Shown: positions 30,714 to 38,273 of the stretch, in pieces
Numbering within the stretch: position 1 is the first letter of the stretch
Layout of the letters: each line of letters starts with the position of its first letter
Assembly (NCBI GenBank): GCA_020725525.1
Contig: DYEX01000015.1
Location: forward strand, 1-48,879
Length of the DNA: 48,879 nucleotides
Source of the DNA: Desulfovirgula sp.
GTDB taxonomy: Bacteria > Bacillota > Desulfotomaculia > Desulfotomaculales > Desulfovirgulaceae
Direction: 5' to 3'
Notes under the pieces: model-generated
Database searches by the model: none
What the model saw: the letters and a program-made list of their open reading frames with translations, nothing else
What the model was told of the DNA's origin: nothing
Position numbers and translations under genes: made by a program

Positions 30714-30741
30714 TTGACAACCACAAATCTTATGCTACAAT
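30714..30741 (+). promoter_or_regulatory. Promoter of speD
   Basis: TTGACA (30714-30719), 16-base spacer ending in TGC, TACAAT (30736-30741). The TGC just before the -10 gives an extended -10. Confidence 0.8.
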
Positions 30742-30838: not shown

Positions 30839-31231
30839 ATGAAACACTTGGGCCGCCATGTCTTGGCTGAAATTTATGGCTGCGAATTCGACATCCTCAA
30901 CGATATTGAAAAAGTCGAAGAAATCATGGTTAATGCAGCCCTCGAAGCAGGAGCAGAAGTACGGGAATGCGTGTTCCATAAGTTCAGCCCGCAGGGAGTC
31001 AGCGGCGTGGTGGTTATCTCCGAGTCCCATCTGGCTATCCATACCTGGCCGGAACTGGGTTATGCAGCGGTGGATGTTTTCACATGTGGTGAGAAGGTTG
31101 ATCCCTGGGATGCTTGCAACTACCTGACCAGCCAATTTCGTGCCAAGCACATGTCGGCCAGAGAAACCAAACGTGGTATCTTTCCCGTCGCTGAACAACT
31201 GGCTGATCATCAGGTAGCTGTCAATCTTTAG
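30839..31231 (+). CDS. speD: S-adenosylmethionine decarboxylase proenzyme
   Basis: A 130-residue prokaryotic SpeD that decarboxylates AdoMet for spermidine synthesis. The self-cleavage site lies in [14 protein letters not shown], where the Ser after Glu becomes the pyruvoyl group. The catalytic [11 protein letters not shown] segment and the C-terminal TKRGIFP are present. Length is normal for the Thermotoga/Bacillus class. The start is ATG 30839 after AGGGGGAAG; the frame is open upstream but would cross the promoter. speE is not in the window. A terminator follows. Confidence 0.95.
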
Positions 31232-31270
31232 GAGGGGGATTTTTATTAGTACCCGGTTAAGTAAGGGCTA

Positions 31271-31316
31271 GTGAGCCTTGCGATCTGAAAAAGATTGCAG
31301 GGCTTACTGCATTTTT
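31271..31316 (+). terminator. Terminator after speD
   Basis: A 16-bp stem with wobble pairs (GTGAGCCTTGCGATCT / AGATTGCAGGGCTTAC), then a T5 run at 31312-31316. Confidence 0.8.
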
Positions 31317-31395
31317 CGGGCATTTTTCACACCGGGAAGGAAATTTTTTAGCTGTAACGAATCAATACTAAGTTAGGGTAAGAAGGAGGTCTAAT

Positions 31396-32148
31396 ATGTT
31401 CGACCGGGTACTCGCCCCCATTCAAGCCGAATTACAGGAAACCAAAAACATACTGGCCAAATCGTTTCAAATCCGGGCAGGGCACCTGGCCAGCTTTGCC
31501 CGTCTGGTACCCGGCTGTTTGCACGACGTGATTCGCCCCGCCCTGGTACTTTTATCAGCCCGGATTTTTGCGCCCCTAAATACACAGGCTGTTGCCCTGG
31601 CAGCCGTGGTGCAGTTTATATACCTGGCTGCCCAACTACACAGGAGTGTCAGGGAGTGGCCCGGACCGGGGGACCCGAAAGACGGCTATCAGTTTCCCAT
31701 ACTGGTGGGGGACTATTTTTACAGCCGCTTTTTTACCTGCTTGTGTGATCACGGTGTGGTAAAATACTTGAAACCTCTCTCGAAAATAATCTGTAAAATG
31801 AGTGAGGGTGGCATCCTGCGTGTCCAAAGTGGAGATGAGCCGAAAAATCCCGACCTGCTCAAACAAATTGTTTATAAGGAAACGGCGGTCCTTTTTGGCG
31901 GGGGCTGCAGGCTTGCCGGACACCTGGCCGGTGCCCCGGAACGGGAACAGGAAATTCTGGAGCGGTTTGGCATAAACTTTGGTATGGCCGTGGGGCTGAA
32001 CGACTATGCCCAGGAAAATAACAGCTACCTTGAGGAAGCCTTCCGGGAATTAACTTATCTCCCCCCCGGGGAAAGCCGGGATACCTTAGAACAACTAATC
32101 CGGCTTTTACAGCAGGATAACGCGGGACTGGCCGCCCAGGTAGGTTGA
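31396..32148 (+). CDS. Polyprenyl synthetase-like protein lacking both Asp-rich motifs
   Basis: A 250-residue protein recognisable as the all-helical prenyl diphosphate synthase fold (HDVIRPALVLLSARIF; FIYLAAQLH; ILVGDYFYSRFF). The first Asp motif, normally HDDVID, reads HRSVRE. The second, normally QIVDDILD, reads GLNDYAQEN. Both magnesium-binding sites are therefore lost. It stands first in the menaquinone operon, where an active heptaprenyl diphosphate synthase (HepT) would normally be. It is also shorter than the usual 320 residues. It may be a non-catalytic partner subunit, as in heterodimeric prenyl synthases, or a decaying gene; the intact frame and AGGAGG site favour the former. Confidence 0.75.
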   Translation: MFDRVLAPIQAELQETKNILAKSFQIRAGHLASFARLVPGCLHDVIRPALVLLSARIFAPLNTQAVALAAVVQFIYLAAQLHRSVREWPGPGDPKDGYQFPILVGDYFYSRFFTCLCDHGVVKYLKPLSKIICKMSEGGILRVQSGDEPKNPDLLKQIVYKETAVLFGGGCRLAGHLAGAPEREQEILERFGINFGMAVGLNDYAQENNSYLEEAFRELTYLPPGESRDTLEQLIRLLQQDNAGLAAQVG

Positions 32149-32168: not shown

Positions 32169-32894
32169 ATGGTCTTCATTCCACCACCCTATCGCAGCAA
32201 AGAAGAATATGTTCATGCTATTTTTTCTTCCATTGCCCACCGCTATGATCTGCTGAACACAGCCCTTAGCTTTAACCGTGACAAATACTGGCGCCGTTTT
32301 GCCGCTGCCCAGACCGGTTTGCAACCGGGCGGTTATGGTTTGGATGTCTGTTGCGGTACGGGTATGCTGACCATTGAGCAGGCGCGTCTGGTTGGTGTCC
32401 GGGGCCGGGTGGTGGGGTTGGACTTTTGTGAAAACATGCTGGCCAAAGCCAGGGAAAACATCAAAAAAACTCCCTTTGCTGAACAAATTCAGTTTGTTCA
32501 AGGAAATGCCGTGAATTTACCTTTCCCGGATAACACTTTTGACTGTGCTACCATTGGTTTTGCCCTGCGCAATGTACCGGACATCCGCAAAACGATCAGT
32601 GAAATGGCCCGGGTGGTCCGACCGGGAGGCAAAGTGGTTTCCCTGGAATTGTCCAAGCCCAGCGCCCCTTTTTTTAAGCAGCTCTATTACCTTTACTTCA
32701 ACCATGTGGTACCCCTTTTAGGGCGGCTGGGTATCGGTTTCGACGGCCCGTACAGTTACCTGCCCAATTCGTTAAAGGACTTTCCCCATCAAAGGGAAAT
32801 AAAAGAGCTTTTTTGCGATGTGGGCCTTGCGGATGCCCGCTACTACGAACTAACCGGGGGCATTGTGACCGTACACGTGGGTACCGTGGTTTAA
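32169..32894 (+). CDS. ubiE: Demethylmenaquinone methyltransferase-like protein (UbiE/MenG)
   Basis: A 241-residue class I SAM methyltransferase for the last ring methylation of menaquinone. YDLLNTALSFNRDKYWRR and LDVCCGTGMLT (SAM motif I) are UbiE hallmarks, with DNTFDCATIGFALRNVPD and LELSKPSAPFFK downstream. The start is ATG 32169 with AAGGAG nine bases before; TTG 32145, overlapping the previous stop, is possible. It is adjacent to UbiD and UbiA in the same operon. Confidence 0.92.
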   Translation: MVFIPPPYRSKEEYVHAIFSSIAHRYDLLNTALSFNRDKYWRRFAAAQTGLQPGGYGLDVCCGTGMLTIEQARLVGVRGRVVGLDFCENMLAKARENIKKTPFAEQIQFVQGNAVNLPFPDNTFDCATIGFALRNVPDIRKTISEMARVVRPGGKVVSLELSKPSAPFFKQLYYLYFNHVVPLLGRLGIGFDGPYSYLPNSLKDFPHQREIKELFCDVGLADARYYELTGGIVTVHVGTVV

Positions 32895-32909: not shown

Positions 32910-34355
32910 ATGGCTTATAAGGATTTGCGGGCCTTCCTTTCAGTACTGGAAAGGCGGGGTCTGCTCAAAAGAATCACCACTGAAGTGGATGCGGAACTGG
33001 AAATTACCGAAATTACCGACCGGGTTTGCAAAGCCGGCGGACCGGCACTGCTTTTTGAAAATGTGCGGGGCTGCAACATACCGGTGCTGACCAACGCCTT
33101 TGGTTCTCTCGAACGGATGTGCCTGGCCCTGGAGGTAGACAATCTGGACCAAATTGGGGCAGAATTGATCAGCATTTTACAACCGGAAGCACTGCCCTTA
33201 ACTTTCCTGGACAAGCTCAAAGCCATACCCAGGTTGGCCCAGTTGTCCTCTTTCATACCCAGGATAGTAAAGTCCGGTCCCTGCAAGGAAGTGATCATCC
33301 GGGACAATCCTTCCCTGAAAGAACTGCCCGTGCTCAAATGCTGGCCCAAGGATGGCGGTCCATTTATCACCCTGCCCCTGGTTTTCACCCGGGACCCCGT
33401 TACGGGCCGGCGCAATGTGGGCATGTACCGCATGCAGGTTTTTGACGAACGCACCACGGGGATGCACTGGCACATACACAAGGGGGGAGCAGAACATGTG
33501 CGAAACTACGACGGACCTATGCCCGTAGCGGTGGCCATCGGGGCCGACCCGGCGGTCATTTATGCGGCCACGGCGCCCTTACCTCCCGGAATCGACGAAA
33601 TGCTTTTTGCCGGTTTTTTACGCAAGGAACCGGTGGAGCTGGTACGCTGTGAAACGGTGGACCTGGAGGTTCCGGCCAATGCCGAAATTATTCTGGAAGG
33701 GTATGTGGACCCGCGGGAAACCCGCCTGGAGGGACCCTTTGGAGACCACACGGGATATTATTCCTTGCCGGATTATTATCCTGTTTTCCATTTGACCTGT
33801 ATTACCAGGCGCAAAAACCCCATTTATGCAGCCACCGTTGTGGGCAAACCTCCGATGGAGGATGCCTATATCGGTAAGGCCACCGAACGCATCTTTTTAC
33901 CACTCATGCGGCTACAGCTTCCGGAAATTGTGGACATAAACATGCCTTTTGAGGGAGTATTTCATAATTGTGTTATTGTGTCAATTAAAAAACGTTACCC
34001 CGGCCAGGCCAAAAAGGTAATGTGTGCCCTGTGGGGTATGGGGCTGATGATGCTGGCCAAACTGATTATTGTGGTGGATGAAAATGTGGACGTCCAAAAC
34101 CTTTCTGAAGTAATGTGGCGGGTATTTAATAACGTAGACCCGCGCCGGGACACCCTTATTGTAGACGGCCCCCTGGACGCCCTGGATCACTCCTCGCCCT
34201 TACCCCACTATGGCAGCAAAATGGGCATTGACGCCACCCAAAAAGGCCCCGGCGAAGGGCACATGAGGGAATGGCCCGAAGATATCGAGATGAGTGCCGA
34301 CATCAAGGAACTTGTAGACAGGAAGTGGAAGAGTTATGGTTTCCATGGTAATTAA
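32910..34355 (+). CDS. UbiD family prenylated-FMN decarboxylase (menaquinone, futalosine route)
   Basis: A 481-residue UbiD-family enzyme, probably MqnL, which decarboxylates the prenylated naphthoate ring intermediate. It shows GMHWHIHKGGAEH, PVAVAIGADPAVIYAA and the active-site LEGPFGDHTGYYSLPDYYPV with Glu and nearby Arg. Length is usual. GGAGG precedes the ATG at 32910. Such enzymes need prenylated FMN from a UbiX, not found in the window; an LpdD-like chaperone candidate lies at 44061. It overlaps the UbiA gene by 20 bases. Confidence 0.9.
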   Translation: MAYKDLRAFLSVLERRGLLKRITTEVDAELEITEITDRVCKAGGPALLFENVRGCNIPVLTNAFGSLERMCLALEVDNLDQIGAELISILQPEALPLTFLDKLKAIPRLAQLSSFIPRIVKSGPCKEVIIRDNPSLKELPVLKCWPKDGGPFITLPLVFTRDPVTGRRNVGMYRMQVFDERTTGMHWHIHKGGAEHVRNYDGPMPVAVAIGADPAVIYAATAPLPPGIDEMLFAGFLRKEPVELVRCETVDLEVPANAEIILEGYVDPRETRLEGPFGDHTGYYSLPDYYPVFHLTCITRRKNPIYAATVVGKPPMEDAYIGKATERIFLPLMRLQLPEIVDINMPFEGVFHNCVIVSIKKRYPGQAKKVMCALWGMGLMMLAKLIIVVDENVDVQNLSEVMWRVFNNVDPRRDTLIVDGPLDALDHSSPLPHYGSKMGIDATQKGPGEGHMREWPEDIEMSADIKELVDRKWKSYGFHGN

Positions 34356-35214
34356 TAAAACAAAAATTTTCCTGGAAATGATTAAATTTGAACACACCAT
34401 TTTTGCCCTGCCCTTTGCTTATGTAGGCGCCCTTCTGGTACAAAAGAAAATACCCAGCATCCACGATTTGTTTTGGATTACCCTGGCCATGGTGGGGGCT
34501 CGTACTGCTGCCATGTGTCTTAACCGGTTAATTGACCGGCAAATTGATGCCCTTAATCCCCGTACTGCCAACCGGGCCCTGCCCAGGGGGCTGCTCAACG
34601 TAAAGGAGGTATGGCTTTCAGTTATTTTTTCCTTTGCCCTGTTGCTGTTGTCGGCCTACCAGTTGAGTCCCCTGGCCTTTCAGTTATCCCCGGTGGCAGT
34701 GGTGGTTCTCTCCTTTTACTCTTTTACCAAGCGTTTTTCGTGGACCTGCCATCTTTTTTTGGGGCTGGCCCTGGGGCTGGCTCCGGTGGGTGCCTGGATT
34801 GCCATTGCCAATCGTTTTGATCTGGCCCCTGTACTCATCGGGCTGGGTGTTCTTTTCTGGGTAGGAGGTTTTGATATTATTTATGCCTGCGATGACTATG
34901 ACTTTGACCGTAAATACGGCCTTCACTCCATTCCGGCCCGTTTTGGCCTGGAGCGGGCTTTAATGATTTCCATCTTTTTTCACATTGTGGCAGCGTTATT
35001 GTTCATCTCCGTGGCCTTTGTCTTAAAGCTGGGGATATTTTACCTGGTGGGGGTGCTGATTGCCGCCGCGCTTTTATTTAAACAGCACGTCATGGTTTCC
35101 CCCCGGGACCTTTCCCGTACGGGAGTAGCTTTCTTCAATCTCAACGGAACTTTAAGCGTAGTCATGTTTGTTTTTACCCTTTTGGACGTGCTCTTTCCCC
35201 TGCACCTTTTTTAA
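34336..35214 (+). CDS. UbiA family prenyltransferase (menaquinone, futalosine route)
   Basis: A 292-residue polytopic membrane prenyltransferase, probably MqnP, which attaches the polyprenyl tail to the naphthoate ring. The two Asp-rich motifs are NRLIDRQIDALNPRTANR and DDYDFDRKYGLHSIPARFG. Eight or nine membrane helices are expected. The start is ATG 34336 inside the end of the UbiD gene, with GGAAG upstream; ATG 34345 is an alternative. Position between UbiD and MqnE places it in the futalosine pathway. Confidence 0.9.
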   Translation: MVSMVINKTKIFLEMIKFEHTIFALPFAYVGALLVQKKIPSIHDLFWITLAMVGARTAAMCLNRLIDRQIDALNPRTANRALPRGLLNVKEVWLSVIFSFALLLLSAYQLSPLAFQLSPVAVVVLSFYSFTKRFSWTCHLFLGLALGLAPVGAWIAIANRFDLAPVLIGLGVLFWVGGFDIIYACDDYDFDRKYGLHSIPARFGLERALMISIFFHIVAALLFISVAFVLKLGIFYLVGVLIAAALLFKQHVMVSPRDLSRTGVAFFNLNGTLSVVMFVFTLLDVLFPLHLF

Positions 35215-35257: not shown

Positions 35258-36364
35258 ATGTACAGACTTTTTTCTTCCACAGAACTAAAGGACATCGCGG
35301 AAAAAGTGCAGGCGGGAGAACGCCTCAGTTTTGATGATGGGGTGCGCTTATTCAGGTCGGGGGACCTTCTAACCATCGGTTATCTGGCCGACATGATCCG
35401 TCAGCGAAAAAACGGCAACCGGGCGTACTTCATTGTTAACCGGCATATCAACCATACCAACATCTGTATCAATCGCTGCCTCCTGTGTGCCTTCGGGCGG
35501 GATCCCGGTGACCCGGGGGCCTATACCATGACCCTGGATGAAATTGAAGCCCGGGCGCTGGAATGCCGGGGCCAGGGTGTATCGGAAATTCATATTGTGG
35601 GTGGATTAAATGATGCCCTGGATCTGGAATACTACCTGGAAATGCTGCACCGGGTGCGCCGGGCCCTGCCGGGGGTGGTCATTCAAGCCTTTACTGCCGT
35701 AGAGGTGGATTACCTGGCCCGCACCAGCGGATTGTCCCTTGAGAAAACCCTGGAACTGCTTAAAGAAGCTGGGCTGGACTCCTTACCCGGCGGAGGAGCG
35801 GAAATATTTGCTCCCCGGGTGCGGGAGCGGATTTGCCCGCGCAAGATCAGTGGTGACCGCTGGCTGGAAGTACACGAAACAGCCCACCGCCTGGGCATGC
35901 GCACCAACGCCACCATGCTTTACGGCCACATTGAAACCATTGAGGAGAGGGTAGAGCACCTAGTCCGGTTACGGGAGTTGCAAGACCGTACGGGGGGCTT
36001 TCTGGCCTTTATCCCCCTGGCCTTCCATCCCAAAAATACGGGGCTGGAATCCCTGGGACTGGCCGGCCCTACCGGCTACGACGATTTAAAAGTACTGGCC
36101 ATTGCCCGCCTGATGCTGGATAATTTCGACCATATCAAAGCCTTCTGGATTATGATTGGCCCCAAACTGGCCCAGGTAGCCCTCTCCTTCGGGGTGGACG
36201 ATCTGGACGGCACGGTGGTGGAAGAAAAAATTGCCCATGATGCAGGGGCCGAAACGGATCAGTATATGCCCAAACAAAAACTCATTAAAATGATCCAGGC
36301 AGCGGGGCGGATACCGGTAGAGCGGGACACCCTGTATAATGTACTCTGGGAGGGGTTGCAGTGA
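35258..36364 (+). CDS. mqnE: Aminofutalosine synthase (radical SAM)
   Basis: A 368-residue radical SAM enzyme that joins the MqnA product to SAM's adenosyl group to give aminofutalosine. The cluster motif is CINRCLLC near residue 70, in NHTNICINRCLLCAFGRD. The HIVGGLNDALDLEYYLEML and LDSLPGGGAEIFAPRVR segments are shared with MqnC. The start is ATG 35258 with GAGGAG upstream. It overlaps mqnA by four bases (GTGA). Confidence 0.94.
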   Translation: MYRLFSSTELKDIAEKVQAGERLSFDDGVRLFRSGDLLTIGYLADMIRQRKNGNRAYFIVNRHINHTNICINRCLLCAFGRDPGDPGAYTMTLDEIEARALECRGQGVSEIHIVGGLNDALDLEYYLEMLHRVRRALPGVVIQAFTAVEVDYLARTSGLSLEKTLELLKEAGLDSLPGGGAEIFAPRVRERICPRKISGDRWLEVHETAHRLGMRTNATMLYGHIETIEERVEHLVRLRELQDRTGGFLAFIPLAFHPKNTGLESLGLAGPTGYDDLKVLAIARLMLDNFDHIKAFWIMIGPKLAQVALSFGVDDLDGTVVEEKIAHDAGAETDQYMPKQKLIKMIQAAGRIPVERDTLYNVLWEGLQ

Positions 36365-37206
36365 CCAGGTTGCGCCTGGGGCAGGTAGAATACCTGAACT
36401 GTCTGCCGGTCTACCATGCCCTGGAGGAGGGGTTACTTCCATTGGACGGGGAACTGGTAAAGGGACCCCCAACCAGGTTAAACCGCATGTTTCTGGAGGG
36501 AGATCTCCACTGCACCCCTCTTTCGTCCATTGAATACGCCCGCCACGCCGGGGATTGTTTCATTTTACCCCGCCTATCCATAGCCAGCGACGGCAGGGTG
36601 GCCAGCATCCTTTTCTTCAGCCACCTCCCGGTTACCGAGCTGGAGGGAAAAAGGGCTTGTGTGACCACTGCTTCCGCCACCTCCGTAGTTTTACTGCGAA
36701 TTCTCTTTGAACATTACTACCATGTGGAGGTAGAACTCTGCCCTGTGGAAGCAGATTTAAGAACCATGCTGAAAATGGGGGACGGGGCGTTGCTCATTGG
36801 TGACGACGCCATGCTGGCCCACCAGCAGGTAATCCGGGAGAATATGCCGGTGTTCATCACCGACCTCGGCCAGGCCTGGAAGGATTTTACCGGGGAAAGG
36901 ATGGTCTACGCCTTGTGGGTGATCCGGCGGGAATTTGCCGAAGCTCATCCGGAAGAAACTACCGCCCTGGCTGAACTGCTCTCCCGTTCCCGCGAAGTAG
37001 GCATGGGGGAACTGCCCACGCTAATTGAAAAAGCACACCGGCGCACCGGCCTACCCCAACCGGTACTGGAAGATTACTTCAATAACGTTATCCGCTACGA
37101 CTTTGACGAGGACTACCGCCGGGCATTACTTACTTTTTACGACTATGCCTATAAAAGCGGCATAATTGAAGAAAGAGTCAGGCTTACGATCTGGGGTGAG
37201 GAGTAG
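36361..37206 (+). CDS. mqnA: Chorismate dehydratase
   Basis: A 281-residue periplasmic-binding-protein-like enzyme that dehydrates chorismate to 3-enolpyruvylbenzoate, the first step of the futalosine route. LRLGQVEYLNCLPVYHAL, GPPTRLNRMFLEGDLHCTPLSS and LIGDDAML are family signatures. The GTG start overlaps the mqnE stop and is preceded by GGGAGGGG. It overlaps mqnC by one base. Confidence 0.93.
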   Translation: MTRLRLGQVEYLNCLPVYHALEEGLLPLDGELVKGPPTRLNRMFLEGDLHCTPLSSIEYARHAGDCFILPRLSIASDGRVASILFFSHLPVTELEGKRACVTTASATSVVLLRILFEHYYHVEVELCPVEADLRTMLKMGDGALLIGDDAMLAHQQVIRENMPVFITDLGQAWKDFTGERMVYALWVIRREFAEAHPEETTALAELLSRSREVGMGELPTLIEKAHRRTGLPQPVLEDYFNNVIRYDFDEDYRRALLTFYDYAYKSGIIEERVRLTIWGEE

Positions 37207-38273
37207 TGCCAAAGGTAACGGTTCTATTAGAAAAGGTCGTAGCGGGGGAGAGGCTCTCCCTGGAAGAAGGGGTGGAACTCCTCACTCGGGCCGACCTTTT
37301 GGCTCTGGGAAAGGCAGCCGACCAGGTACGCCGCCGCCTGCACCCGGAAAACCGGGTGACTTTTATTATTGACCGCAACATCAATTATACCAATATCTGC
37401 CAATGCTGCTGCCGTTTCTGTGCCTTTTATCGCCACCCACAGGATCCCGATGCCTACGTAATTGAGAAAAAAGAACTTTTTCAAAAAATCGAGGAAACCA
37501 TCCGGGCAGGAGGTACGGAGTTGCTCATCCAGGGCGGGCTGCATCCAGCTCTGGGACTGGAATACTATCTGGATATGCTCCGATCCATAAAGGAACGTTA
37601 CGATATCCACATTCACTCCTTTTCGCCACCGGAAATAATGCACATGGCCAGGAAATCCGGTCTGCCGGTTAAGGAAGTGCTGGCCCGGCTAAAAGAAGCC
37701 GGCCTGGATTCTCTACCCGGAGGAGGTGCAGAGATACTGGTAGACCGCGTGCGTCGGGTCATCAGCCCGCACAAGATTTCCTGGACCGAGTGGATGGAAG
37801 TAATGCGCTCCGCCCACAGCCTGGGGATGAAAACTACCGCCACCATGATGTTTGGACATGTGGAAACGCCCGAAGATCGCGTACTGCACATGGTGCGGGT
37901 ACGGGAACTACAGGATGAAACCGGAGGGTTTACCGCCTTTATTCCCTGGAGCTTCCAGCCCCAAAACACTGCCCTGGGAGGAGAAACAGCTACCGGAGTG
38001 GATTATTTGCGCACTCTGGCCGTGGCCAGGTTGATGCTGGATAATGTGCCCAACCTCCAGGCTTCCTGGGTCACCCAGGGGGCCAAAATAGCCCAGGTAG
38101 CTCTGTTTTTTGGAGCTAATGATTTCGGCAGTACCATGCTGGAAGAAAATGTGGTTCGGGCAGCGGGAGTTAACTACCGGGTACCCTTACCGGAAATAAT
38201 CCGTTGCATCAGGGAGGCAGGTTTCACCCCGGCCCAGCGCACCACTTTTTATGAGATCATCCGGGAATATTGA
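37206..38273 (+). CDS. mqnC: Cyclic dehypoxanthinyl futalosine synthase (radical SAM)
   Basis: A 355-residue radical SAM enzyme that cyclises dehypoxanthine futalosine. The cluster motif is CQCCCRFC in NYTNICQCCCRFCAFYRHP; the extra cysteine within the triad is noted. LLIQGGLHPALGLEYYLDML and SLPGGGAEILVDRVRR are typical. It is paralogous to MqnE. The GTG start overlaps the mqnA stop. It is the last gene of the operon; mqnB and mqnD are not in the window. Confidence 0.94.
   Translation: MPKVTVLLEKVVAGERLSLEEGVELLTRADLLALGKAADQVRRRLHPENRVTFIIDRNINYTNICQCCCRFCAFYRHPQDPDAYVIEKKELFQKIEETIRAGGTELLIQGGLHPALGLEYYLDMLRSIKERYDIHIHSFSPPEIMHMARKSGLPVKEVLARLKEAGLDSLPGGGAEILVDRVRRVISPHKISWTEWMEVMRSAHSLGMKTTATMMFGHVETPEDRVLHMVRVRELQDETGGFTAFIPWSFQPQNTALGGETATGVDYLRTLAVARLMLDNVPNLQASWVTQGAKIAQVALFFGANDFGSTMLEENVVRAAGVNYRVPLPEIIRCIREAGFTPAQRTTFYEIIREY

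Follow-up and report, generated by a model that had tools for sequence, protein, structure and literature searches.

A gene of the futalosine-pathway menaquinone operon in Desulfovirgula sp. (GCA_020725525.1) most likely encodes a counterpart of HepS of Bacillus, namely the small subunit, itself non-catalytic, in a two-part long-chain trans-prenyl diphosphate synthase that probably makes a C35 (heptaprenyl) product. The gene, here given the working name X, lies at positions 31396-32148 (+) of contig DYEX01000015.1 in the window, i.e. the whole 48,879-nt stretch of DNA that was analysed (positions 1 to 48,879, forward strand). A non-catalytic subunit had already been proposed by the sequence-only reading, and this proposal is well supported by the loss of the catalytic motifs, the conservation of the gene, and the presence of an intact HepT-type partner gene. 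The same reading had set the protein apart from the known HepS/HepT pair; the size of X, its adjacency to menG, the proximity of hepT in other lineages, profile comparisons, and the tree instead point to a HepS counterpart.

Loss of the active site

The X frame encodes 250 aa, has an ATG start and an AAGGAGG ribosome site, and contains no internal stop, in keeping with the earlier description of a frame that is intact and well placed for translation. PF00348 matches residues 100-198 with 49.7 bits (cut-off 27), and Pfam names the gene only as a polyprenyl synthetase. Profile alignment places X 1-203 against HepT 1-207, after which X resumes at HepT position ~279 and covers the last ~42 HepT residues. 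HRSVRE of X occupies the position of the first Asp-rich motif (FARM), where HepT has HDDVVD, while the second motif (SARM) is mostly deleted, so that the loss of both motifs noted earlier is real. The suggested replacement of the second motif by GLNDYAQEN is correct in part, but the rest of the motif and the following helices (~70 residues) are deleted rather than substituted.

These changes are shared by the X-like ORFs (n = 122), a set picked by best profile match, under which a short ORF with intact motifs might be classed as HepT. A full FARM or SARM is found in 0/122 of them, and D82/D83/D86 and D209/D210/D213 are intact in 49/49 HepT-class sequences. The remnant of the first motif keeps its His in 114 X-like ORFs and ends in Glu or Asp in 93, HepT K223 falls in a gap in 122/122 and HepT D228 in 120/122, and the catalytic Lys (HepT K168) is replaced by Glu in 94/122 and also in 7/13 HepS. 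Essentially no member retains the GKPxGxD region or the RR that follows FARM. Polar positions that are strongly conserved in X include H82, D106, and E162. Judged by these positions, X has no active site and is non-catalytic.

An AF2 model of X (45 sequences; pLDDT 93.1, pTM 0.91) has the all-helical prenyl-synthase fold. Among the best 50 structures, the top VIA Z score is 27.4 (3oyr; rmsd 2.6 over 235 residues), and 3qkc, the small subunit of plant GPPS, scores Z 24.7. The HepS structure 9kp1_A is not among these best 50 listed structures, which is uninformative either way.

Conservation and selection

X is present in 58 of 60 relatives (genomes of the order); completeness is 57% and 91% in the two that lack it. 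The conservation of X spans about 18 families of this order and reaches outside it, at a fixed operon position, and pairwise dN/dS within the genus is 0.11-0.29. X is not decaying and is under purifying selection. Intact orthologues in close relatives, named earlier as the sign of local decay, were not what we found, as the orthologues lack the motifs too; local decay was ruled out by these orthologues and by dN/dS. In a Desulforamulus aquiferis record, X is split into two overlapping ORFs (L093:5989-6695), which is likely a sequencing error because mqnA and mqnC are also split on the same contig.

Genomic context of X

The presence of menG, UbiD, UbiA/MqnP, mqnE, mqnA, and mqnC genes downstream of X (Table 1) identifies X-menG-ubiD-ubiA-mqnE-mqnA-mqnC as a futalosine-pathway menaquinone operon, and the earlier statement that the operon is otherwise complete holds for menG to mqnC. 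The longest menG ORF has a TTG start at 32145 and overlaps the X stop. The ORF upstream of X, presumably a speD-type AdoMet decarboxylase gene, has its own promoter-like site (TTGACA-16-TACAAT at 30714) and is probably a separate transcription unit. Since a strong terminator-like hairpin separates speD from X, the operon probably begins at X itself.

Table 1. Positions of X, its motifs, and neighbouring features in the window, and of X-MenG fusions in other genomes
Feature	Position	Strand	Remark
Presumed speD-type AdoMet decarboxylase	30840..31231	+	upstream of X
Intrinsic-terminator-like hairpin	31269..31309	+	between speD and X; stem of 18 pairs, -30.8 kcal/mol, z -5.9
Candidate sigma-H-type promoter	31336..31362	+	GAAGGAAAT-N11-AACGAAT, after hairpin; sole strict match in window, both strands
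X, probable HepS-like non-catalytic subunit	31396..32148	+	trans-prenyl-synthase fold without both Asp-rich motifs
HRSVRE codons	31639..31656	+	X residues 82-87; first Asp-rich motif remnant
QFPILVGDYFYSRFFTCLCD codons	31690..31749	+	X residues 99-118; most conserved family stretch
menG/ubiE demethylmenaquinone methyltransferase	32169..32894	+	
UbiD-family menaquinone decarboxylase	32910..34355	+	TIGR03701
UbiA-family prenyltransferase (MqnP-like)	34336..35214	+	step that would use polyprenyl diphosphate
mqnE aminofutalosine synthase	35258..36364	+	TIGR03700
mqnA	36361..37206	+	PF02621
mqnC	37206..38273	+	TIGR03699
X-MenG fusions	L062:5983-7554, L075:5986-7554, L082:5998-7569, L130:3391-4983		some contigs titled Thermincola

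A menaquinone gene lies within 6 kb of X on the same strand at 90 of 99 X loci, and speD is seen at 86 of the 99, almost always just upstream of X. The gene directly precedes menG in the window and in many relatives, and single-protein X-MenG fusions of 523-532 aa occur in Thermincola-type genomes (about ten genomes, two families in the draw). In other Clostridia, hepT is on the X strand in all 19 loci with hepT in view, at a distance of 16 and 27 nt in two lineages; several lineages have hepT near X and no adjoining menG, and in Acididesulfobacillus X-ubiA-mqnE-mqnC and hepT fall inside one 7-kb stretch. No natural single-chain fusion of X and HepT was met among the X loci; a 548-aa ORF (L207:3222-4865) with a C-terminal X-like domain instead carries an N-terminal cysteine-rich CCG domain of the heterodisulfide-reductase type. 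The hepT gene is regularly followed by an apparent precorrin-2 dehydrogenase (siroheme/heme) gene (L001:1417-3044, L181-L192, L198-L200), and this pair joins the X cluster in some lineages (L086, L087, L124).

Probable catalytic partner and menaquinone length

The genome of the window encodes two other PF00348 proteins elsewhere than X, a HepT-type (L001) and an IspA-type (L002) synthase. The search for a catalytic HepT elsewhere in the genome, as the sequence-only reading had suggested, thus yielded one intact HepT-type gene, which is on a different contig (C59) and not near X. Its 320-aa product has intact HDDVVD and DDILD motifs, and its best equivalog is HepT, yet with 369 bits vs. a cut-off of 457. 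A catalytic long-chain-type PF00348 synthase of this kind is present in 60/60 relatives. The genome of D. ruminis (taken as G040), for which mainly MK-7 has been reported (PMC3569383), encodes only X, one HepT, and one IspA, and for Acididesulfobacillus MK-7 alone has been reported (PMC8982180). The presence of MK-7 in relatives that carry both genes would agree with an X-HepT complex that gives a C35 product.

Relation to HepS and HepT

The HepS genes used for comparison come from Bacilli-type genomes with the gene order hepS-menG-hepT; in window-type loci, X-menG takes this slot. The Pfam HepS model PF07307 reaches 11.1 bits on X (E 0.29; cut-off 30) and thus fails the gathering score. In the 60 relatives, all PF07307 matches fall on X, with three above the cut-off, one of them from the same genus. 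The model also weakly matches some catalytic HepT in other orders of the phylum, which weakens a PF07307 match as proof of HepS identity, and profile-profile comparison was used for this reason. With hhalign, X aligns to HepS with a probability of 97.4% (E 1.2e-11) and to HepT with 99.9% (E 2.4e-31), compared with 22% for HepS and HepT. The X profile matches each of the five HepS loci shown (34-44 bits), none of which was reported for the HepT profile at the threshold used.

When 11 outgroup synthases are included in the tree, X and HepS fall on one side of a branch, with HepT and the IspA-type outgroups on the other (support 99/95). AU tests did not reject alternative groupings (p 0.107 and 0.065), with HepS and X both on long branches. 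X is named HepS-like rather than a PF07307 member because it fails the cut-off of that model, and it is probably sister to HepS. As its profile matches both HepS and HepT, while HepS barely matches HepT, X appears from these comparisons to be a less eroded relative that bridges the two and is nearer to the catalytic ancestor.

A candidate sigma-H-type promoter

The consensus of sigma-H promoters is RnAGGAwWW-N11-12-RnnGAAT. The window contains a match directly upstream of X (Table 1), and its genome encodes sigma-H (TIGR02859 above cut-off). Among the upstream regions of X orthologues, 62/123 contain a strict and 82/123 a relaxed match, whereas the remainder of these loci predicts 0.004 and 0.009 per region, respectively. 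The 123 regions share descent and are not independent draws, but the two boxes are kept while the spacers vary. For each of the other cluster genes, scanned in 20-86 regions, the number of strict matches is 0 or 1, and no strict match was found upstream of the scanned Bacilli HepS genes. Genome-wide, the N11 form has 49 matches vs. 7 for the reversed pattern, including sites upstream of a MinC gene and a MraZ gene. Individual C. difficile SigH promoters resemble the consensus, and minC is a listed SigH target in that organism (PMC7438776). The recurrence of this motif suggests that the menaquinone operon may belong to the sigma-H regulon of many Clostridia. A search of the literature for menaquinone genes under sigma-H control surfaced no paper.

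Proposed function and alternatives

X retains the all-helical fold in its model and has the conserved GDYLYGRFF helix, whereas the two Asp-rich metal sites, the catalytic Lys (usually Glu), and the helices that follow the second motif are lost. Its partner would be the HepT-type protein from contig C59, which would do the chemistry (FPP + 4 IPP), while X would shape the far end of the product tunnel such that elongation stops at about seven units. UbiA/MqnP would then use the polyprenyl product, and MenG would methylate the demethylmenaquinone. We infer the pairing of X with HepT, the control of chain length, and the C35 product; that X pairs with HepT and sets the tunnel end is most likely by analogy with HexA/HexB and HepS/HepT (PMC7839719). 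A literature search on the X family in Desulfotomaculum found nothing.

The alternatives differ in what they make of the motif loss and of the gene neighbourhood. That X is a decaying prenyl-synthase duplicate can practically be dismissed, since the loss of catalytic motifs alone would look alike but retention over ~18 families of the order and outside it, purifying selection, and a fixed operon position speak against decay. It is very improbable that X is catalytically active through an unorthodox site, in which H..V.E and E162 replace the Asp motifs and the Lys: the conservation of H82, D106, and E162 would fit such a site, but essentially all members of the family have lost the GKPxGxD region and the RR that follows FARM along with both metal sites and the catalytic Lys. 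X might also mainly serve MenG (or UbiA) as a scaffold that binds the prenyl chain and so holds the lipid substrate in late menaquinone synthesis, rather than being a synthase subunit. The natural X-MenG fusions and the position of menG directly after X in many relatives agree with this role, which we nevertheless regard as improbable because several lineages have no menG beside X but hepT near it (16-27 nt in two), and because the precedent of HepS in Bacilli is that of a HepT partner, as stated in the passage of PMC7839719 that cites Zhang et al. 1998.

Compatible with the assignment of X as a HepT partner is an origin independent of HepS, by convergent loss from a HepT-like ancestor, as in PDSS2 or the small subunit of plant GPPS. 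The similarity to HepT is far greater for X than for HepS, and the AU tests leave alternatives standing; the support of the X-HepS branch, the Glu at the Lys position and the gene slot beside menG that both have in common, and a single-sequence BLAST match (E 2e-6, one X/HepS pair) count against separate origins, which makes this history unlikely, if still worth considering. Also on the unlikely side is a wider role of X, tentatively that of a bridging subunit which would complete the HepT synthase and tie it to MenG in a menaquinone assembly unit, encoded in an operon that sigma-H, a transition-phase factor, would switch on across spore-forming Clostridia.

Two-part prenyl synthases with a silent subunit are already known from Bacillus and Micrococcus. 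HepS has diverged so far that it barely resembles the catalytic subunit, whereas the clostridial X family keeps similarity to both and shows how HepS could arise, from a synthase losing its metal sites and the helices after the second motif. Our findings suggest that sulfate reducers and many other Clostridia set menaquinone length with a heteromeric enzyme. The MenG fusion and the candidate sigma-H-type promoter offer direct ways to test how tail synthesis is tied to ring methylation and to the control of sporulation.

Comparison with known systems

HepS (GerCA), component I of the Bacillus heptaprenyl diphosphate synthase (PF07307, structure 9kp1_A), has about 250-290 aa, as does X. Both lack the Asp-rich motifs and have H..V, a GDYxxG[RL][FY][FY] helix (QFPILVGDYFYSRFFTCLCD in X residues 99-118 vs. 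QLTVLAGDYFSGLYYQILAD in a HepS, L159/L195), and often Glu for the catalytic Lys; both genes directly precede menG, and hepT lies in the hepS region. Unlike HepS, X is still clearly similar to catalytic synthases over its full length and has a PF00348 match. Its gene belongs to a futalosine-pathway operon, HepT is encoded elsewhere in the window genome, and a candidate sigma-H-type promoter upstream of X sets it apart from the scanned HepS genes. With HepT (component II, TIGR02748), X has the fold and a full-length profile alignment in common, but its catalytic Lys and both metal sites are missing, as are about 70 residues starting at the second motif.

Hexaprenyl synthase HexA/HexB of Micrococcus luteus likewise combines a motif-less small and a catalytic large subunit, as proposed for X and HepT, and its small subunit has been proposed to control product length together with the large one (PMC7839719). 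HexB appeared in the X comparison solely as a catalytic homologue. The plant GPPS small subunit, with 3qkc among the close folds to X, is a partner subunit with a prenyl-synthase fold lacking DDxxD. PDSS2/Dlp1 of human and yeast is also a partner subunit with this fold and without DDxxD, and, unlike X, both it and the plant protein are eukaryotic and act in a different pathway.
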